A stretch of 64,000 nucleotides of DNA from contig NZ_KB904769.1 of NCBI RefSeq assembly GCF_000380185.1, forward strand, positions 52,002 to 116,001, given 5' to 3'. This DNA is from Thiofilum flexile DSM 14609. Lineage in GTDB: Bacteria; Pseudomonadota; Gammaproteobacteria; Thiotrichales; Thiotrichaceae. Shown here piece by piece: positions 1-16,731 of the stretch. How positions within the stretch are numbered: the first letter of the stretch is position 1; each line of letters begins with the position of its first letter. The notes under the pieces were generated by a model, which was not told the DNA's origin, did no database searches, and saw only the letters and a program-made list of their open reading frames with translations. The position numbers and the translations under genes were made by a program.

Positions 1-300
1 ATGTCCGGAATGGGTGGCATGAGCGGTATGTCCGGAATGGCTGGTGTTCCTGAAGGCTGGGCATGTCTGGAGTGGGCACCTGCTCAATCAGGTATGAGTG
101 GCATGTCAGGCATGGGTGGCATGTCTGGAATGGGTGGCATGAGCGGCATGTCTGGAATGGGTGGCATGAGCGGCATGTCTGGAATGGGTGGCATGAGCGG
201 CATGTCCGGAATGGGTGGCATGAGCGGCATGTCCGGAATGGGTGGCATGTCAGGTATGTCCGGTATGCAAGGACAAAACTGGGTTCCTCCAAAAAATTAA
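1..300 (+). CDS. Met/Gly/Ser-rich repeat protein (possibly 5' partial)
   Basis: The protein is built almost entirely of short M-S-G-M and M-G-G-M units, interrupted once (about residues 16-29) by a non-repeat stretch containing VPEGWACLEW. The DNA repeat is equally regular, so a second frame is also open, but frame 1 is the one with a clean Met/Gly pattern and ends in GQNWVPPKN. The ORF begins at base 1 and may start upstream of the window. No conserved domain is recognised. Met-rich low-complexity proteins often bind copper, but that is only a suggestion here. It sits 75 bp upstream of a cytochrome gene on the same strand, so it may belong to that operon. Confidence 0.55.
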   Translation: MSGMGGMSGMSGMAGVPEGWACLEWAPAQSGMSGMSGMGGMSGMGGMSGMSGMGGMSGMSGMGGMSGMSGMGGMSGMSGMGGMSGMSGMQGQNWVPPKN

Positions 301-375: not shown

Positions 376-1488
376 ATGCATTCAGGTAGGGAAAAGTGGC
401 CGCTGGTAGCCTTAGCTGTCGCCATTCTTTCGGGGGTTGGTGGCTTGGCTGCTATTGGAGGGGGCTTGTTGTTCGGCAAGGAAAAAGCACCAGAACTATT
501 ACTCAGTCAATATTACATGGCAGCGACCACCTCCAGTGTACCTGCAACACCTACAAATACTAGTACCAGTGTTAGCACTGAAAATACTACAACGGTTGCT
601 ACCTCAGCAGCTACAGCCCCGGCTGCTACAACATCGACACCAGATCCTGCGCCAACAGCAGTCGCACCTAGTCCTGCTGTTGCGGTAGTCTCTAATGAGG
701 AAATTGCTAAAGAAACGCAAACCAATGCGGATAAATTATTGAGTGAAGTATCCCCAGAGCCAGTAAAAGTTAATTATGAAAATGCGCGTTGGGATCCGAT
801 TCACTTTAAGCCAGCTATTGAAAAAGCCAGTAATGCCGAGTGCCTGAAATGCCATCAAGAAGTACTGACTAGTAAGGTACGTGATAGCTCTCCGGCAGGG
901 TTAAATAAAAAGGATACCTTAGCCTGGTATCAAACCTTAGATACCTATCAAGGTGAGCAAATGACCTTTCACCAACGTCATTTAACCGCACCTTTTATTA
1001 ATAAAGTAGCCACTATGCAATGTATTACTTGTCATCAAGGTAATGATCCGCGTGAGGAAACAGGTACAGGATCAGTTGATGTGCAAAGTGATTTAACCCT
1101 ACGCAAAATGGTGAATCCACAAGTATGCTTAATGTGTCATGGACAATTTCCTCATGAAGTGATGGGGTTACCTGGGCCTTGGTCACAAAGTGGGGCTGCT
1201 TTCCAAAATAACTGTTTATTATGCCATGCAGCGATTCGGACTAATCGTCATCAAGTTAACTTCCTAAAAGCGCATGAAATCGAAAAAGAAGGCATGGCTA
1301 GTAGTGATAGTTGCTATGGTTGCCATGGTGGACGAGCTTGGTATCGCATTAGTTTCCCTTATCCGCGTCATCCTTGGCCGGGCAGCGGTGCTGTACCCGA
1401 TTGGGCAAAAGATCGCCCTACTGAGTCCGACTATCGATTTGTGATTCAAGGGACTACTCCAGCACCTGCTACTGCAACTAAACCATGA
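376..1488 (+). CDS. Membrane-anchored pentaheme cytochrome c
   Basis: Five CXXCH haem-binding motifs are visible near residues 156, 216, 251, 280 and 313 (CLKCH, CITCH, CLMCH, CLLCH, CYGCH). The N-terminus has one hydrophobic segment (about residues 8-33) serving as uncleaved anchor or signal, followed by a Thr/Ala/Pro-rich linker of about 80 residues, so the haem domain should lie in the periplasm. The start at 376 is chosen because AGGGAG precedes it; an in-frame ATG at 322 falls inside the hairpin arm. It is 10 bp upstream of a DmsA-like gene. Because no DmsC-type anchor follows, it is a good candidate to link that enzyme to the electron transport chain. The exact family is not recognised. 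Confidence 0.85.
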   Translation: MHSGREKWPLVALAVAILSGVGGLAAIGGGLLFGKEKAPELLLSQYYMAATTSSVPATPTNTSTSVSTENTTTVATSAATAPAATTSTPDPAPTAVAPSPAVAVVSNEEIAKETQTNADKLLSEVSPEPVKVNYENARWDPIHFKPAIEKASNAECLKCHQEVLTSKVRDSSPAGLNKKDTLAWYQTLDTYQGEQMTFHQRHLTAPFINKVATMQCITCHQGNDPREETGTGSVDVQSDLTLRKMVNPQVCLMCHGQFPHEVMGLPGPWSQSGAAFQNNCLLCHAAIRTNRHQVNFLKAHEIEKEGMASSDSCYGCHGGRAWYRISFPYPRHPWPGSGAVPDWAKDRPTESDYRFVIQGTTPAPATATKP

Positions 1489-1498
1489 GAAGCCAGCC

Positions 1499-4060
1499 AT
1501 GACTACACTTGATTGGAAAGATAAATTAAAAGCGGCTTTACAAATGGATCGCCGTACCTTTTTAAAAACCTCTGCTTTAGGTTCTGCTGCCCTAGCAGCG
1601 GGTGGGTTAGCCGTAAAGCCTAAAGAAGCTAAAGCTTTCGCTTATGAGCCTTATCCCCGTGATAATGACTTAACTACCGTCGTTACCAGTTGCGCTCATA
1701 ACTGCGGCTCACGCCATATGTTAGTCGCGCATAAAAAAGGTGATGTGATCGTGCGCTTGTCTACCGATGATGGGCGTTATCAGAAAGATGGTGAATTTGG
1801 CAAAGATACTTTTGAAGAACCGCAAATTCGTGCCTGTTTACGGGGGCGTTCTTATCGGTCACGTTTATATTCACAAGAGCGTTTACTCTATCCCATGATA
1901 CGAGTAGGTGAGCGGGGTGAGGGTAAATTTAAGCGTGCCTCTTGGGATACTGCCTTGGATTTTGTTGCAGGCAAAATGGAAGAGCTTAAGGCCAAGTATG
2001 GGCCTACCGCTTTACTCGATCAGTCTTATGCAGGAGCCTCTTATGGGGTATTACATAAATCAGACCAAATTGAGGGCTTATTAGGGCGCTTTTTGGGTAT
2101 GTATGGCTGCCGTACTAGCTCGTGGTCGGTTCCCTCCTATGAAGGCACAAAGTTTAGCTCACGTATTACTTTCGGCACCATTGAGGATGGTAATGAAGAT
2201 GATGCCTTTGCCCACTCTAAACTGATCATTATGTGGGGCTGGAATCCGGCTTATACCTTCCATGGGGGCAATACTTTTTATTACATGCGTATGGCTAAGC
2301 AACAAGGCTGTAAGTTTGTTTTAGTTGACCCGCAATATACCGATTCTGCCGCTGCCTATGATGCATGGTGGATTCCGATTCGCCCGAATACCGATGCCGC
2401 CATGATGGCGGGTATGGCGCACTATATCTTTACCAATAACCTGCATAATCAGGACTTTATTAATAAGTTTGTGCAAGGTATGGATGAGGGTACTATGCCA
2501 GACTGGGCGAAAGGCAAAGAGAACTTCAAAGATTATATCTTAGGTAAGTATGACAATACGCCTAAAACACCTGAATGGGCCTCTGCTATTTGTGGTGTAT
2601 CTGCCGAAGATATTAAAAAGCTAGCCGACCTCTATGCCAATACCAAACCAGCAGCCTTAAAAGCGTCTTGGGCACCGGGGCGTAATGCGTATGGTGAGCA
2701 ATATAATCGTATGGCTGCTGCTTTGCAGGCTATGACTGGAAATATCGGTGTGCTCGGTGGTTGTTCCGAGGGCATTGGTAAGGCATGGCATGCTGAAGGT
2801 GTAGCTTATCCTTATGATGAATTTGCCAATGTGTTTTATGAGTCGATTAAGTCCGACCGTTGGGCGCATTGTGTGCTGAATTACCCCAATGTGAAGCGTG
2901 AGGACATCGGCTTGTGGCCGGGTGGACGCGCGGGTGATGGGGTCATTCCTGATATTCGCGGTATTTTCTGGCAAGGTTCCGATTGGTTTAATCAATTAAC
3001 CAATATTAATAAAGAAATTGAAGCCATGAAAAAATTGGAGCTAGTGGTGTGTAATGATGCCACGATTACTCCATCGGGTTTATATGCGGATGTACTATTC
3101 CCCGTAGCGACTCACTTTGAGCGTCATGATGTGGCTTTGCCTTGGTATAAAGGGCATTACTACATTCACCGCCCTAAAGTCATTGAGCCTATGGGTGAGA
3201 GTAAAACCGACCTGCAAATTTATACCGAATTAGCATGGCGCTTAGGCGGCGAACAGTTTGGTAAACGTTATAACCCTAAAGCTAACCGTGATTACTTCCT
3301 CAATCCTGATGAGGTCGATGAACTCTACCTGCGTGAATGGTGGGAAAATAAGGTCATGGCACATCAACATGTGGAAATGCCTTGGGATGAGTTTAAAAAG
3401 CATGGTGTGTATAAATTTATTCTGCCACGCCCCCATGTTGCTTTCCAAGACAATGTAGAAAAGGGTACACCATGGCCTACTGCATCGGGGAAAATTGAAA
3501 TCTTTTCCGGTCAATTAGCGCAATACGATGATTGGACTAAGACCGCCTATGGTCATGAGATTCCAGCCATTCCAAAATGGATTGAGCCTTGGGAATACCT
3601 AGGTGCTAAGGATAAGGTAGAGAAACATCCCTTCCATTTAATTTCACCACATCCTCGTTGGCGGACACACTCGATCTTTAACAATATTGGGTGGTTACGC
3701 GAAACCTATGAGCAAGAGGTGACGATTAATGCCTCGGATGCTAAAAAGCTCGGTATTAAAACGGGTGATACGGTCGAGGTATTCAATGATCGTGGGCGGG
3801 TGGTCGTACCAGCTTATGTAACCGAGCGTTGTATGCCCGGTGTGCTCGTGATTCATGAGGGTGCGTGGATTGATTTAGATGAAAACGGTGTTGACCGCGC
3901 AGGTAATCCCGATATGTTGACCCTAGATGAGCCAAGCCCAGCAGGCGCTTTTGCTTATAACACTGTTTTGGCTGACATTAAAAAGACGGATTTGGCACAT
4001 AAACCGGGTTGGGATCAGTTAGCTACTTCACGTAGCCACGTATTCCGGCGTGATCTTTAG
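1499..4060 (+). CDS. DmsA-like molybdopterin oxidoreductase, catalytic subunit
   Basis: An 853-residue member of the DMSO reductase superfamily, closest in visible motifs to DmsA/YnfE. A Tat signal (RRTFLKTS, residues 18-25) predicts folded export to the periplasm. The N-terminal FeS site has Cys65, Cys69 and Cys113 (IRACLRGRSYR), but the expected third Cys (CxxxCGSRC in DmsA) is His73. Ser213 (VPSYEGT) aligns with the DmsA Ser molybdenum ligand. A molydopterin-binding region follows, and the C-terminal dinucleotide-binding domain contains HPRWRTHS. The neighbours supply the electron-transfer subunit and chaperone. The substrate cannot be read from sequence; sulfur oxyanions, sulfoxides, N-oxides or another oxyanion are all possible, and it could run as a reductase or dehydrogenase. 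Confidence 0.88.
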   Translation: MTTLDWKDKLKAALQMDRRTFLKTSALGSAALAAGGLAVKPKEAKAFAYEPYPRDNDLTTVVTSCAHNCGSRHMLVAHKKGDVIVRLSTDDGRYQKDGEFGKDTFEEPQIRACLRGRSYRSRLYSQERLLYPMIRVGERGEGKFKRASWDTALDFVAGKMEELKAKYGPTALLDQSYAGASYGVLHKSDQIEGLLGRFLGMYGCRTSSWSVPSYEGTKFSSRITFGTIEDGNEDDAFAHSKLIIMWGWNPAYTFHGGNTFYYMRMAKQQGCKFVLVDPQYTDSAAAYDAWWIPIRPNTDAAMMAGMAHYIFTNNLHNQDFINKFVQGMDEGTMPDWAKGKENFKDYILGKYDNTPKTPEWASAICGVSAEDIKKLADLYANTKPAALKASWAPGRNAYGEQYNRMAAALQAMTGNIGVLGGCSEGIGKAWHAEGVAYPYDEFANVFYESIKSDRWAHCVLNYPNVKREDIGLWPGGRAGDGVIPDIRGIFWQGSDWFNQLTNINKEIEAMKKLELVVCNDATITPSGLYADVLFPVATHFERHDVALPWYKGHYYIHRPKVIEPMGESKTDLQIYTELAWRLGGEQFGKRYNPKANRDYFLNPDEVDELYLREWWENKVMAHQHVEMPWDEFKKHGVYKFILPRPHVAFQDNVEKGTPWPTASGKIEIFSGQLAQYDDWTKTAYGHEIPAIPKWIEPWEYLGAKDKVEKHPFHLISPHPRWRTHSIFNNIGWLRETYEQEVTINASDAKKLGIKTGDTVEVFNDRGRVVVPAYVTERCMPGVLVIHEGAWIDLDENGVDRAGNPDMLTLDEPSPAGAFAYNTVLADIKKTDLAHKPGWDQLATSRSHVFRRDL

Positions 4061-4071
4061 GGAGAAGCATC

Positions 4072-4803
4072 ATGGCAAATGAAGTAGTTAAAGATCAAGG
4101 CGCAATCAAAGAAGCGATTGTCCGGCGCAAAAAAGCAGTCTATACGCCCGTTAAGCCCGTGCAGCAACTCGGCTTTATTCATAATAATGTCGATTGCATT
4201 GGTTGTCGTGCCTGCGAGATTGCCTGTAAGGATAAAAATGGTCTACCTCCGGGGCCGCGTTTCCGTCGGGTGATGTATGTTGAGGGTGGGACTTATCCGC
4301 AGGTCTATGCGTATAAAGTCAATATGTCCTGCAATCACTGTGCAGAGCCTGCGTGTTTACCGACTTGCCCCACAGGTGCAATCTTTAAGCGCGAAAAGGA
4401 TGGGATTGTCGATATTGATTCGACCCTATGTATTGGTTGTCGGCGTTGTGAAGCGGCTTGCCCCTTTGGTGCACCCCAATTTATCCCTGAGCAAAATATT
4501 GTCTCTAAGTGCAATATGTGTGTGGATGAGATTGAGGCTGGACGTAAACCGTACTGTGTGCAAGCTTGTATGATGCGGGTATTAGACATTGGCCCTATTG
4601 ATCAATTACGGGCGGGTACTTATCCCACTAAAGCGCGAGCTGAACATGAGACAGTGGTAGGACAAGTCAAAGGCATGGCAAATCCAGAACTCACTCATCC
4701 TTCTATAGTGTTCGTGGCACATAGTCAGGGTGTTGTAGCGGGTGCAGCTCCAGTAGCTCCTGCTCCAGCAGCTCCTACGGAGACAGGTAAAACTAATGGC
4801 TAA
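4072..4803 (+). CDS. DmsB-like 4x[4Fe-4S] electron-transfer subunit
   Basis: The 243-residue protein carries four ferredoxin-type cysteine groups: DCIGCRACEIAC, CNHCAEPACLPTCPTGA, CIGCRRCEAACPFGA and CNMCVDEIEAG...CVQACM, the pattern of DmsB/PsrB/NrfC subunits. It should relay electrons between the catalytic subunit and a redox partner. It has no signal peptide, as expected for a subunit exported bound to a Tat substrate. It ends in an Ala/Pro-rich tail of about 25 residues not usual in DmsB. GGAG precedes the start, 11 bp after the catalytic gene, and its end overlaps the chaperone gene by 8 bp, so translation is probably coupled. Confidence 0.9.
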   Translation: MANEVVKDQGAIKEAIVRRKKAVYTPVKPVQQLGFIHNNVDCIGCRACEIACKDKNGLPPGPRFRRVMYVEGGTYPQVYAYKVNMSCNHCAEPACLPTCPTGAIFKREKDGIVDIDSTLCIGCRRCEAACPFGAPQFIPEQNIVSKCNMCVDEIEAGRKPYCVQACMMRVLDIGPIDQLRAGTYPTKARAEHETVVGQVKGMANPELTHPSIVFVAHSQGVVAGAAPVAPAPAAPTETGKTNG

Positions 4804-5572
4804 TCATTTACTAGAAGATGAGAGAGTGCTAGGACAATTTTGTCAGGTAATAGCGACCGACTTGCGTTTATTGGCGGATTTACATGCTAGTGAATTGACG
4901 CGAGAGCGCATGCGGGAGTTATTGGACATTGGTTTTCCGGGACTCTTAGCCTTAGGTTCCTATGATCACACCTTAGCCTTGGCGGTAGAGCAATTAGGTG
5001 TGGGTATGGCAAGCTGGCCTAATCCCATACCGGATTCATTAGTCGATGATTTGGCAGCCGATTTTGCGGATATTTACTTAAATGGCAGCTTACATGGTCT
5101 ACCTAATGAATCGGTTTGGTTGGATGATGAGGAGCTTACTTGCCAGCAACCGATGTTTGAAGTACGTGAGTGGTATGCTCGGCATAATTTAGCGGTTCCG
5201 AATTGGCGCAAACTGTCGGATGACCATTTAGTCAATGAATTGTTGTTTATAGCCTATTTACTCGACAAAGTGTCGAGTGAACAGGATAGCCAAGTCTTAG
5301 AAGAGGTGGCGCAATTCATGGATGAGCATTTGTTACGCTGGTTATTGCCTTTTGGCAAACGAGTAGCGCTGCGCTGTGCTACTCCCTTTTATAGTTCTTT
5401 GGCTTTAACGAGCGCTTTATATGTAGAACAGTTGCGCGAATTAATAGCCATGATTTTAGGTGTAGCCCGTCCTAGTATCGAAGCCATCGAGCTTAAACTC
5501 AGGACACAACAATTAGCCGCTAGTGGGGTTCAACCTCTGCGTTATTACCCAGGTAGTGCGCCCAGTTGGTAA
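4796..5572 (+). CDS. TorD/DmsD-type molybdoenzyme assembly chaperone
   Basis: A 258-residue, Leu-rich, all-helical cytoplasmic protein without metal motifs, containing the acidic LNGSLHGLPNESVWLDDE and HLVNELLFIAYLLDK segments in the position and style of TorD/DmsD (NarJ-like) chaperones. Members bind the Tat signal of their partner molybdoenzyme and hold it until cofactor insertion. It overlaps the DmsB-like gene by 8 bp and is followed directly by a ferredoxin gene. The family call rests on overall character and operon position more than on a single motif. Confidence 0.78.
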   Translation: MANHLLEDERVLGQFCQVIATDLRLLADLHASELTRERMRELLDIGFPGLLALGSYDHTLALAVEQLGVGMASWPNPIPDSLVDDLAADFADIYLNGSLHGLPNESVWLDDEELTCQQPMFEVREWYARHNLAVPNWRKLSDDHLVNELLFIAYLLDKVSSEQDSQVLEEVAQFMDEHLLRWLLPFGKRVALRCATPFYSSLALTSALYVEQLRELIAMILGVARPSIEAIELKLRTQQLAASGVQPLRYYPGSAPSW

Positions 5573-5579
5573 GGATTGC

Positions 5580-6659
5580 ATGATGGTGTCATTGTCATGG
5601 TTGCGACAAACTCAGCGTGAATGGAAGATACCGGATATTATTCCTGAGCGCTGTGTGCATCAACATTGCGAAATTGCCAGTTGTACGCGTTGTGTCGATA
5701 GCTGTCCTACCTCGGCCTGGAGGTTAGATGAGGGTGGATTAAGGATTGATACCACCTTATGTGATAGCTGTGGACTTTGTGTGGCTGCCTGTCCACAACA
5801 AGCGTTAGTACAAACTCACTACCCATTGTTAGGCCTAATCAATCAACATAAATCACTATTAGCCTACTGTGAACGTTGTCATGGGGTTAAAGCAGGTAAG
5901 GGAGTGGTGCCTTGCCTGCATATTTTTAGTCTAAGTACTTTAGCAGAGTATTATCAATTAGGTTATCGGCATCTATATGTAGCGAGTGGCGAGTGCGAGC
6001 AATGTGAGCGCTTTGGTAAAACAGCTACCTTGCAACAGACACTACATAGCCTTAATCAACTACTAGAGAGCCGGCAGGTAGAACCTATTCAACTTACACA
6101 ACTCGATCAAACCGCACTCAAATCCTATCACAAGCATTTAATGACAGTGCAAGCGGATCAAACGGCTACCAGTCGGCGGCAATTCTTTCGTCAAGCAGTG
6201 ACTTTAGTAGCAGAAACGGTGGAGCAAGGGGAGTTAACGACAGAGATGATGGCTCCTGCCCAGAGTATTACCTGGGTTGCCCGCTTACCTCATAATACTA
6301 CGGCAGGTGTGACCTTCCCTTATGTACCAATAATTAATGCCGAGCGTTGTAATGGTTGTGATGCCTGTGTGCAATTATGCCCCCAACAAGCCCTTAAACT
6401 CGAACAACAGGCCGATACTTTAGCCTATCAAGTGCAGGTAGAGCGTTGTAATGGTTGTGGTGTTTGTGTGGATGGTTGTGATCAGCAAGCATTGCAAATT
6501 GAAGCAGTAAAACCAGCTCCAGAACCTTTAGCGTTAACCACCGCTCATTGCAAAGCGTGTGGTAGTCCGTTTCATTATCCCACCCAGCAAGCCTCGCCTA
6601 ACTATTGCCGTATTTGCACTCAAACGAATCATTATCGTCGTTTATATCAGGTGTATTAG
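5580..6659 (+). CDS. Polyferredoxin with C-terminal zinc-ribbon-like segment
   Basis: About 359 residues with two pairs of [4Fe-4S] groups. The N-terminal pair is in CTRCVDSCPTSAW and CDSCGLCVAACPQQA; the C-terminal pair is in CNGCDACVQLCPQQA and CNGCGVCVDGCDQQA, the last lacking the usual Pro. Between them is a 200-residue region with another Cys cluster (CERCH, CEQCERF). The end has CKACG...CRICT, a possible zinc ribbon. It resembles NapF/MauN-type cytoplasmic ferredoxins that accompany molybdoenzymes. The start is placed at the ATG pair 5580/5583 after AAGGA; an upstream in-frame ATG at 5523 would overlap the chaperone gene by 50 bp. Its role could be electron transfer or cofactor maturation. 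Confidence 0.8.
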   Translation: MMVSLSWLRQTQREWKIPDIIPERCVHQHCEIASCTRCVDSCPTSAWRLDEGGLRIDTTLCDSCGLCVAACPQQALVQTHYPLLGLINQHKSLLAYCERCHGVKAGKGVVPCLHIFSLSTLAEYYQLGYRHLYVASGECEQCERFGKTATLQQTLHSLNQLLESRQVEPIQLTQLDQTALKSYHKHLMTVQADQTATSRRQFFRQAVTLVAETVEQGELTTEMMAPAQSITWVARLPHNTTAGVTFPYVPIINAERCNGCDACVQLCPQQALKLEQQADTLAYQVQVERCNGCGVCVDGCDQQALQIEAVKPAPEPLALTTAHCKACGSPFHYPTQQASPNYCRICTQTNHYRRLYQVY

Positions 6660-13557: not shown

Positions 13558-14463
13558 TTATTGAATCCTATGCCCAATCCGTTCCCAGTTGAGTTTATGC
13601 TCTTGCATATTAATCGACATCCAAATGAGATCCGCTTTACCTATTACATCACGCAGGGCAACGGTGCCAAAAAAGCGTGAGTCATTACTAGCCGAACGAT
13701 TATCACCAAGGACAAAGATTTGCCCAGCAGGTACTTTGAAATTAATTTGTGGGGGGAGTGAGGGTTTATCGCGCCAGATGACGTTCCAACTGTGATTCTC
13801 AAATTGCTCTCTAACGGTGAGGATTTTACCGGTTTCATCAGCACTAAGGGTATTTAATAGGCTCTTACCATTAATGCTGACATCGGCATTTTTAATGCTG
13901 ATCTGATCGCCGGGCAGAGCTATTACGCGCTTAATAAAAAATTGAGTACGATCATTGGGATAGACAAAAATCACCACATCCCCTCGCTCTACCTTCGTCT
14001 GACAGCCGCTACAGTTATAGCGTTTATTGGCAAAGAGCATATCGCCGGCATAAATATTTGGCTCCATACTACCCGAAGGAACACGAAAGGATTCCACATA
14101 GTAATGACGCACATATAGTTTAGTTAGGGGTATGAGCACCACATAGGCGATGACTAATATACCAACATAAACCCCACTACGCTGCCAACTATACTCAAGT
14201 GTTGCTCCACGCCAAGCGACCCAAATCGCCCCTAAAGCAGCGTAAAGCCATAAGGCTATCTGAGCCAATACCCATAATAGTAGTCCATCCATGCGATTTT
14301 CAGGTGCCATGAATTGCATAATGCCAACAAATACGGCAGGAAAGAGAAAAATATAAATTAAAATTAAATAAATGGCTTTGGTGAGCTGTCCATTGTACCA
14401 CTGGCCTAAGCCGGGTAGGAAAGCGGATAACAAGAAGGCACTTAAAGGATGTGTTTTCGTCAT
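13558..14463 (-). CDS. lepB: Signal peptidase I with extra N-terminal membrane module
   Basis: The catalytic Ser132 lies in VPSGSME and the general base Lys178 in FFIKRVIALPGD; the later boxes GDNRSASNDSRFFG are intact. The enzyme cleaves Sec and Tat signal peptides on the periplasmic face of the inner membrane. Its 301 residues include about 110 before the catalytic part with three or four hydrophobic segments and the motif FLPGLGQWYNGQ, which resembles small TM2-type membrane domains and is absent from E. coli LepB. A CSGC pair (about 151-154) lies in the catalytic domain and may form a disulfide. It lies upstream of the YdjM-like gene in one unit. Confidence 0.93.
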   Translation of the reverse strand: MTKTHPLSAFLLSAFLPGLGQWYNGQLTKAIYLILIYIFLFPAVFVGIMQFMAPENRMDGLLLWVLAQIALWLYAALGAIWVAWRGATLEYSWQRSGVYVGILVIAYVVLIPLTKLYVRHYYVESFRVPSGSMEPNIYAGDMLFANKRYNCSGCQTKVERGDVVIFVYPNDRTQFFIKRVIALPGDQISIKNADVSINGKSLLNTLSADETGKILTVREQFENHSWNVIWRDKPSLPPQINFKVPAGQIFVLGDNRSASNDSRFFGTVALRDVIGKADLIWMSINMQEHKLNWERIGHRIQ

Positions 14464-14670
14464 GATCGATTGGATTGATTATTATCATGCATTGTTTGAA
14501 GTGTAGGCGGTTGTACTCTTTATCGGCTGAATCGTCAATGTGCTTGCGCTGATCTGCTAATCCTGCCTCTAGTCGGTATCGCTCTAGCTACTGTGGGTCA
14601 CTCTTGAATTAAAATTGCTTATAAGATTTATAAATAAAAAATTATATTATTTAATCACAAGTTGGTACTT

Positions 14671-16731
14671 ATGCTTTCAGCTCATGAACCTGCATCACCC
14701 CATGGTCAACTATTACCATACTATCACCTGCAAGCGGCTCCTTGTGCTAAGCCACTGGTGCAACCTCAAAGTTTATCTGGCGATCAGCTAGTGATTATCT
14801 GTGAGCGAGAAGATATTGAGTTAGGTCAGGTGCTGTCCGGTAAATTAAAAGGTGGCTCGCTAAAAATTAGCGCAGTTTCTTATAAAACGCTACGTATTCA
14901 GCCACTTTTTCTGAAGGAATCTCAACCACAGATTGTTTTAGTGGTATTACCGCGCTTATTGACCATAGGGGCAGAAGAGGGTGAAGTGCGCCAAGCGACC
15001 ACCCGCTTATATACGGTGCTCAATAGTTTACAGCATTATCAGCCAGATACTTTGTTGGTAGCACAGTTTAGCGACGGTCAATTTGGCCTAGATCCTGCTA
15101 GTGCGCCTCATTTAGAACAGGTGGGTTGGCGCAGTGTATTAGCCAATTGGTCGAGCCAATATCCACAGGGTCAGGCACGTTTGGTCGATTGTGATAGCTC
15201 GACACCTTTGGGGGCATGGAGTGATTTAGTGATCGCGGCCTTACAAATGCCCGGAACATTCCAATCCTTAGCCAAGCGCGAAGACGAATATTATCAATTA
15301 AGTCTCGTACCATGGGATGTGCAAAGTTCAGAGAGCGCTTTATCCTTTAAGGCGCAATCAGTAGTGATGGTGTTAGGCGTTCAATCCCCCTTAATTACTA
15401 TCTATGCTGCTACACTGGCCCAACAAACGGGGGTGAGCTTAGCTTTAGTGGGGCAAGAGGCTTTAGTGGCAAATGAAGCCATGCAGCGGGTGATACAATA
15501 CTGCCAACAGGCGGGGATTCGAGTACGTTATTATGCCTGTGATCTGACTGAAGAAACGGCAGTAGCCTCAACGGTACAACAAATTCAAAGTGACTATGAA
15601 GCGCCGATTGAAAGTGTGATTTATGGTACTTTGAGTGATGATTTGGTGAGTAATAGAGCCAGTCATAGTGTGGATCAGGTACGCAGTGTGATGCACCTTA
15701 CCCACTATTTACCTAAATTAATGAGATGGCTATCCATAGCTGCAATAGATACGCTATTGGGGGCTAAGCAAGATTATTGGGCAGGTTATACAACTGAGTT
15801 AATCCATGCTCATTTAGTGAATCAACGAAGAAAACGCCCGCATTGTGTGGTTCAGATGCTAGCTCTTGGAGATATGCCGGTTAATCAAAGCGTTGATGCA
15901 CTCCTACCCTTAGCTAATACACACTCTCATTACCCCTTATTTATTGGAGGACAAGAAGCATTAGCCCTTTGGGGGGAGAGTACTCATCCTGTCCCGCTTG
16001 AGCCACTTGAATCAGTGGATGAGCCGCCACTGGTTACTCTAGAGCCTATTACAGCAAGCATTATCCCTACAGTGGATGAGTTAAGCATTAATGAGCTAAC
16101 GCCAGAGTTAGAAGAACAAGATAAGTATCTGATAGCTTCAGAGCTAGAGGCAGAGAAGCATCAACCTATGCCTGCAGAGCTAGAAGCCAATAAACATCTA
16201 GTGCCTGCAGAGCTAGAAGCAGATAAGCACCCTACAGCTCCAGAATTGGAAGATAAGGTAACATTACCCAAAGCTAAGGTTGAGGATAAAATTGCTGAGA
16301 AAAAGGAGAGGGTGACTCAGCCCCGTCTCTGGTCAGAGCATAGTTTTACGGCTCAAACCGCAGTCAATGAGTATTTAACTGCAGAGGAGTTTGGGCATTG
16401 GCAAGCCGATTGGAGCATGGAAATCTTGCGTCCGGTGGTGGCTAGTGTCTTAAATGCCAAACCGAGGATTTTGGTTAATCAGGTAGAGTGTTTGGATTTT
16501 TTAGTGGATGGTCATCAAGAGACCACTGCCCGCGTGTATATTGCTGACTTCAACACGAGTCGTTTGGTTTTAAAGTATGAGTATTGGGGTAAAAATGCCT
16601 CAGATCAGCATTACCAAGTGGCTCAAGGAAACGTCATATTAGGGTATGGAGCACGCTGTTTAGAACGCTGGTTAGAATTACCATTTCCTGCTGAGGTAGT
16701 GGATAAAATACGAGATTTTTTAAATAGTTAA
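14671..16731 (+). CDS. Degenerate polyketide-synthase-like ketoreductase/dehydratase protein, function unknown
   Basis: A 686-residue protein. Around residues 228-330 a Rossmann-like pattern (VVMVLGVQSPLITIYAATLAQ..., YYACDLTEETAVASTVQQI, ESVIYGTLSDD) follows the layout of PKS/fatty-acid-synthase ketoreductase domains, but the nucleotide-binding glycines are not conserved. Residues 476-530 hold four imperfect AELEA-type Glu-rich repeats, probably a linker. The C-terminus (about 570-686; LVDGHQETTARVYIADFNT) may be a hot-dog dehydratase-like fold. The start is ATG 14671; the frame extends to a TTG at 14662. No acyl-carrier or synthase genes accompany it. It lies 108 bp before recA, where cinA is common in relatives. 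The call is a fold-level inference. Confidence 0.5.
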   Translation: MLSAHEPASPHGQLLPYYHLQAAPCAKPLVQPQSLSGDQLVIICEREDIELGQVLSGKLKGGSLKISAVSYKTLRIQPLFLKESQPQIVLVVLPRLLTIGAEEGEVRQATTRLYTVLNSLQHYQPDTLLVAQFSDGQFGLDPASAPHLEQVGWRSVLANWSSQYPQGQARLVDCDSSTPLGAWSDLVIAALQMPGTFQSLAKREDEYYQLSLVPWDVQSSESALSFKAQSVVMVLGVQSPLITIYAATLAQQTGVSLALVGQEALVANEAMQRVIQYCQQAGIRVRYYACDLTEETAVASTVQQIQSDYEAPIESVIYGTLSDDLVSNRASHSVDQVRSVMHLTHYLPKLMRWLSIAAIDTLLGAKQDYWAGYTTELIHAHLVNQRRKRPHCVVQMLALGDMPVNQSVDALLPLANTHSHYPLFIGGQEALALWGESTHPVPLEPLESVDEPPLVTLEPITASIIPTVDELSINELTPELEEQDKYLIASELEAEKHQPMPAELEANKHLVPAELEADKHPTAPELEDKVTLPKAKVEDKIAEKKERVTQPRLWSEHSFTAQTAVNEYLTAEEFGHWQADWSMEILRPVVASVLNAKPRILVNQVECLDFLVDGHQETTARVYIADFNTSRLVLKYEYWGKNASDQHYQVAQGNVILGYGARCLERWLELPFPAEVVDKIRDFLNS

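Follow-up and report, generated by a model that had tools for sequence, protein, structure and literature searches.

A DmsA-like molybdoenzyme clade with histidine at the third FS0 position, encoded beside secreted methionine-rich proteins

Gene content of the cassette

The window analysed here is a stretch of 64,000 nucleotides of Thiofilum flexile DSM 14609 (contig NZ_KB904769.1, positions 52,002 to 116,001 of the forward strand), and coordinates given without a locus handle count from its first base. It begins within a cassette of forward-strand genes. The 3' end of a gene for a secreted (Gly-Met-Ser/Gly)n methionine-rich protein (1..300; L121:6881-8300) is followed by a c-type cytochrome with five CxxCH motifs, as in 66 of 72 relatives, which in T. 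flexile also has a membrane anchor at its N terminus and a linker (376..1488; the probable start is ATG 376, the ORF being open from TTG 322). Next comes the catalytic subunit, a DmsA-like molybdoenzyme of 853 residues recognised by its ORF, its domain and profile matches and its place in the tree (1499..4060), which belongs to what we call the His clade. The DmsB-like subunit downstream of it (4072..4803; ORF and profile match) has 16 cysteines, as do 50 of its 52 relatives, and is predicted to hold four [4Fe-4S] clusters; it scores 196 bits against TIGR02951, slightly below the cut-off of 214. The series continues with a TorD/NarJ-type maturation chaperone, assigned by domain and profile match (4796..5572), and a NapF-like polyferredoxin (5580..6659; probable start ATG 5580, ORF open from GTG 5523). 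The sequence-only reading that drew attention to the molybdoenzyme site could not show that the methionine-rich gene, cut by the window edge, belongs to this conserved cassette.

Across the family the genes usually run from a secreted protein of about 100 residues through the methionine-rich protein and the five-haem cytochrome to the His enzyme, after which come the DmsB-like subunit, TorD and the NapF-like protein; a class I cytochrome c often stands between the last two. The small secreted protein, here L121:6490-6828 (+), is the first operon gene in most loci and displays the pattern PIAG..PS.RP..AP...WYTPF.RPGM.GPYD.R.WH; it has no Pfam match, and its structure model is poor. A search of the PDB returned no relative of the five-haem cytochrome. 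In three alphaproteobacterial loci a c2-like domain with a single haem is fused to the N terminus of this cytochrome, a hint that its partner may be a high-potential cytochrome c, and a class I cytochrome c gene is present in many of the gammaproteobacterial cassettes. The loci with the fusion are L059, L066 and L139, the last being the Rhodobacter xanthinilyticus plasmid pEJ01. No membrane anchor of the NrfD/DmsC type was seen among the conserved neighbour clusters or in the R. xanthinilyticus cassette; the four-Cys-type DmsA of Rhodovastum does have a DmsC. The conserved neighbour clusters examined likewise held no copper genes. In many genomes of lucinid symbionts the cassette is followed by a thioredoxin-like/NHL-repeat protein (L034:13020-14621, with relatives in 19 loci).

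The cassette is conserved together with genes for a sensor kinase and an NtrC-type regulator, which lie either upstream on the other strand or downstream. In T. flexile they lie divergently just upstream of the window (L121:2969-6319, minus strand) as a sensor kinase with a periplasmic CxxCH, HAMP and PAS and an NtrC-type sigma-54 activator; the periplasmic CxxCH of the sensor is found in 33 of 35 loci. A sigma-54 -24/-12 motif (approximately TGGCAC-N5-TTGCW) stands ahead of the first cassette gene in 19 of 35 loci, the expectation being 0.013 per region; the match in the T. flexile locus itself, TGGCATGGTTAGTGCA, is imperfect. At L121 ~6340-6380 there are two palindromes that differ little from each other, TGCCATTTTGGCA and TGCCAAAATGGCA; they lie some 125-147 bases ahead of the point where the ORF of the first cassette gene opens, and form a candidate activator site. 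As the NtrC-type palindrome TGCCATTTTGGCA is found only in this genome and, twice, in L052, it is no general feature of the family.

The FS0 site and the active site

The catalytic subunit carries a Tat signal peptide with the twin-arginine motif RRTFLK (1550..1567; TAT_signal, PF10518). When the codons of ORF 1499-4060 are read again, Cys65 (TGC, 1691..1693), Cys69 (TGC, 1703..1705), His73 (CAT, 1715..1717) and Cys113 (TGT, 1835..1837) stand where the sequence-only reading had placed them, and the alignment of relatives identifies them as the first to fourth FS0 positions, with His73 replacing the third cysteine of DmsA. That reading had also held that DmsA and YnfE have a cysteine at this point within conserved flanks, and both statements agree with the E. 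coli proteins: DmsA has CTVNCGSRC, YnfE CSVNCGSRC and YnfF CTVNCGSRC, and in all of them ACLRGRS comes after CxxNCGSRC. Its picture of a single altered residue within a site that is intact elsewhere is apt for the flanks, which are DmsA-like, but not for the whole protein, which is only about 35% identical to DmsA and therefore represents an old branch, rather than a DmsA with one altered residue.

We aligned 105 distinct relatives that are 65% or more identical, and all of the 104 that cover the FS0 site have C-C-H-C, which rules out a sequencing error, chance or a local mutation as the origin of His73. FS0 would most likely be a [4Fe-4S] cluster on three cysteines, with His73 as the ligand at the third position, an arrangement that may raise the cluster potential. 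An AlphaFold model of the subunit has a pLDDT of 64 overall and below 50 at residues 63-74; we therefore draw no ligand geometry from it and use it for the overall fold only. With this mediocre model, the fold search gave as its best match Haemophilus influenzae MtsZ, a methionine sulfoxide reductase, narrowly ahead of DorA, a ranking that agrees with the sequence comparisons in placing the Ser-type S/N-oxide reductases closest.

Further along the chain, Tyr177 (2027..2029) aligns with Tyr114 and Ser213 (2135..2137) with Ser147 of the DorA-type DMSO reductase of Rhodobacter, which are, respectively, the active-site tyrosine and the Mo ligand of that enzyme. Both are invariant in the 105 relatives. 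In DmsA-type relatives position 177 is mostly Gly, Thr or Ser, and otherwise Arg or Asn. As it has both a DmsA-type FS0 region and the DorA-type Tyr177, the His clade unites these two features.

Phylogeny and distribution

An alignment and a tree, the checks proposed along with the sequence-only reading, reveal that the close relatives share His73 and form a clade of their own. In a tree of 59 sequences, built by a quick method in which long rows, L102 among them, are not securely placed, the 27 His rows occupy one side of a branch with an SH-aLRT of 100 and a stem of 1.1 changes per column. Neither the four-Cys DmsA/YnfE rows nor the DorA/TorA/BisC rows, which have no cluster, fall among them. 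This monophyletic all-His clade, together with a score below the NCBIfam cut-off for DmsA/YnfE (TIGR02166; 607.1 against 777.7 bits), supports the earlier idea that these enzymes are a DMSO reductase branch not recognised before. Membership of DmsA/YnfE is contradicted by the ligands and the tree as well as by this score. Membership of DorA/TorA/BisC is ruled out by the invariant FS0 motif and the separate clades, and that of subfamily II (NarG, EbdA, SerA, DdhA, PcrA) by a score of 226.3 bits against a TIGR03479 cut-off of 984.75, with Cys65 at the first position and His73 at the third.

Scanning one genome per species, we found 311 encoding stretches, the best 80 of which are at 76-90% identity; further members came from whole-genome searches and one plasmid. 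The clade ranges over Alpha- and Gammaproteobacteria, including the former Betaproteobacteria; of the 369 genomes of the class, 16 carry it. There are no intermediates among the genomes of the class and of the Pseudomonadota that were searched, the identity of the matches within the class dropping directly from 71% to 37%. Members are present in the named isolates Thiolinea disciformis DSM 14473, Azospirillum rugosum, Rhodobacter xanthinilyticus (on the plasmid) and Thermopetrobacter, which makes a functional test practical.

At the DNA level, the pattern for CxxNCGSRH matches 15 of the 16 family genomes and three other genomes of the 369; the missing sixteenth is G422, whose gene is without its 5' part, and G306 has an additional match besides its own family gene. 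We considered whether the motif occurs in other DMSO reductase lineages, and the three off-family matches that were read in detail, in G306, G407 and G592, lie in frames of 24-36 residues and are attributable to chance. Second copies of the His enzyme in one genome also occur. In L021 (~13778-16562) this copy is located after a CRP/FNR-like regulator and has no methionine-rich gene; G327 also has two (L132, L138), one of them with its own methionine-rich protein of the GMYGMRGMGG type.

The methionine-rich neighbour

The methionine-rich gene of T. flexile starts upstream of the window (G000:C24, ~50882) with the signal peptide MKTLLKKVLPLVVSTMLFAPVTFADQQ; about 200 unresolved bases lie between this start and the window, and the reading frame shifts across the gap. 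The protein consists of (Gly-Met-Ser/Gly/Asn)n blocks with short aromatic stretches in between, for instance YFKITPQGQIFFYP and WVCTQW. Family members have a signal peptide and a methionine content of 14-31%, with 68-140 methionines in the longer copies of the sulfur-oxidiser type. In most complete copies every third residue is methionine, and the complete copies contain hardly any His or Cys and few charged residues.

Of the 43 family loci for which 2 kb or more of DNA precedes the enzyme, 37 have a methionine-rich ORF upstream, and a partly masked copy in L026 brings the count to 38; no recognisable gene of this kind is seen in the other five (L020, L033, L050, L072, L079). A DNA pattern of six GMx units is present in all 16 enzyme-positive genomes and in 15 of the 353 others (369 genomes of the class; Fisher p=7e-20, a value that overstates the independent evidence because the genomes are related). 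Two of these 15 are cassettes cut by contig ends, and the other inspected matches are GroEL tails or chance.

Proposed function and alternative explanations

As far as its sequence tells, the enzyme looks like an S-oxide reductase. We give an even chance to the proposal that the catalytic subunit is a periplasmic Mo-bisPGD S-oxide reductase whose FS0 is a [4Fe-4S] cluster with a His ligand and which re-reduces the methionine sulfoxide of its methionine-rich partner; in it we infer the substrate, the direction of electron flow, and the ligation and potential of the cluster. The main substrate would probably be methionine sulfoxide, above all that in the (GMX)n protein encoded upstream. Oxidants at an oxic-anoxic interface would convert the methionines of this sacrificial protein to the sulfoxide. 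Electrons from the quinol pool or from a cytochrome c would then enter the five-haem cytochrome, cross the DmsB-like subunit by way of its four clusters and go on through FS0-His to the Mo, which would remove the oxygen and regenerate methionine. As the fourth ligand of FS0, His73 may tune the cluster to its cytochrome partners, and the c-haem sensor kinase with the NtrC-type regulator could switch the operon on from its sigma-54 promoter.

The existence of the clade and its linkage to methionine-rich proteins suggest a system, not described so far, in which oxidised methionine beyond the cell membrane is repaired or recycled. With a Ser-type enzyme, a neighbour dense in methionine, and the precedents of DorA, DmsA and Azospira, a methionine/methionine sulfoxide buffer fed by respiration would be the simplest joint reading. 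Somewhat more tentatively, and at a little less than an even chance, we propose that the Cys3His-FS0 enzyme co-evolved with the extracytoplasmic (Gly-Met-X)n protein as a new two-part system, namely a rechargeable methionine/methionine sulfoxide buffer, charged by respiration and controlled by a haem sensor, in sulfur oxidisers and other Pseudomonadota.

Five of the 43 loci are without a recognisable methionine-rich gene and the second copy of L021 has none, which weighs against a sulfoxide reductase of this kind. The MxxM repeats, whose spacing is compatible with copper(I) binding, could serve that function instead. It is conceivable, though unlikely, that the enzyme simply serves respiration by reducing a small acceptor such as DMSO, free methionine sulfoxide, selenate or TMAO, next to a methionine-rich protein that binds copper(I) or silver or forms a structural layer. 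The DmsAB-TorD-NapF gene set does resemble that of respiratory enzymes, and Tyr177 and Ser213 fit S/N-oxide reduction in general; however, the methionine-rich gene lies beside the cytochrome in nearly all loci and tracks the enzyme between genomes, and neither the lack of copper genes in the conserved neighbour clusters examined nor the near absence of His and Cys from the protein favours a role in metal binding. The class I cytochrome c of the gammaproteobacterial cassettes and the c2-like fusions, for their part, would also suit an oxidising enzyme, as would a His ligand in a high-potential chain. Such an enzyme might be a dehydrogenase of reduced sulfur compounds, like DMS dehydrogenase, whose electrons would leave through the five-haem protein for a cytochrome c of high potential and an oxidase, and SoxB is mildly enriched in carriers (12/16 against 138/353, p=0.007). 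We consider this improbable, as a quarter of the carriers show no SoxB, the closest families are reductases, and the known dehydrogenases of the family, EbdA and DdhA, have Asp as the Mo ligand and their His at the first cluster position, not the third; a dehydrogenase would, moreover, leave the methionine-rich protein without explanation.

A separate doubt concerns His73 itself, which might be no ligand but a proton or electron relay near the pterin, with FS0 being a [3Fe-4S] or a site-differentiated [4Fe-4S] cluster on three cysteines. The AlphaFold model is too poor at residues 63-74 to position His73, and the iodate reductase IdrA has been reported to have a high-potential [3Fe-4S] cluster at the place of FS0 (PMC10100899). 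Against this, the histidine takes exactly the place of the third ligand in every one of the 104 relatives, the other three cysteines are equally invariant, and ligation of FS0 by histidine has a precedent in subfamily II. We regard a non-ligand His73, which can be combined with any assignment of the substrate, as rather unlikely, and favour its role as a ligand.

In the open literature we found no report of a histidine at the third FS0 position or of this cassette, most subscription papers lying outside the search. The clade adds a well-defined branch to the heavily studied DMSO reductase family, and as its ligand pattern was found described nowhere, the effect of the third-position histidine can be tested against the His-first enzymes. 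Should the methionine-rich protein be the substrate, a dedicated methionine buffer against oxidants, charged by respiration, would exist in bacteria besides Azospira. There is also a gain for annotation: the plasmid record gives the cassette genes general names only, the His enzyme being labelled just "molybdopterin-dependent oxidoreductase".

Relationship to known systems

The His cassette shares with DmsABC and YnfEFGH of E. coli the C3xC3x spacing of FS0, the GSR and ACLRGRS flanks, the Tat signal, a DmsB-type subunit with 16 cysteines and a chaperone of the TorD/DmsD type; by alignment alone, the serine on Mo is also common to DmsA/YnfE and the His clade. It differs from them in an identity of only about 35%, in the DorA-like Tyr177 and in having no DmsC anchor; the five-haem cytochrome, the methionine-rich protein and the control by a c-haem sensor and NtrC are further differences. 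DmsA has the four-Cys FS0 C3xC3xCxnC (PMC12636705), whereas in the His clade the third residue is His in 104 of 104. The Salmonella DmsA has been described as a methionine sulfoxide reductase (PMC12636705).

Unlike DorA, TorA, BisC and MtsZ, the His clade has both an FS0 cluster site and a DmsB-type subunit. It shares with the DorA types, by alignment, the serine on Mo and the active-site tyrosine (Tyr177 in 105 of 105), and we liken it to this group both in its probable S/N-oxide chemistry and in probably being fed by c-type cytochromes, as several of its members are. DorA reduces protein-bound methionine sulfoxide (PMC7402097), and TorC is a five-haem cytochrome (PMC11727998).

Histidine ligation of FS0 is established in subfamily II, where the His is at the first position with three cysteines after it (PMC8840923), in accordance with the statement in the sequence-only reading that Nar-type enzymes have theirs at a different, first position. 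The His clade has in common with these enzymes one His and three Cys at FS0 and a haem-containing partner; the Mo ligand of subfamily II, however, is Asp.

YedY1 of Azospira suillum has the MsrP/YedY fold, unlike the His enzyme, which has bisPGD DMSO reductase domains, the corresponding fold matches and an Fe-S subunit. The MrpX-YedY1 system, in which a methionine-rich peptide paired with a methionine sulfoxide reductase (PMC5748585) scavenges hypochlorite, is under SigF/NrsF control, whereas the His cassette has sigma-54/NtrC genes, and the long regular (GMX)n repeat of the latter is unlike MrpX. The two systems have in common a periplasmic methionine-rich protein encoded beside a molybdenum enzyme, which in Azospira is a methionine sulfoxide reductase.
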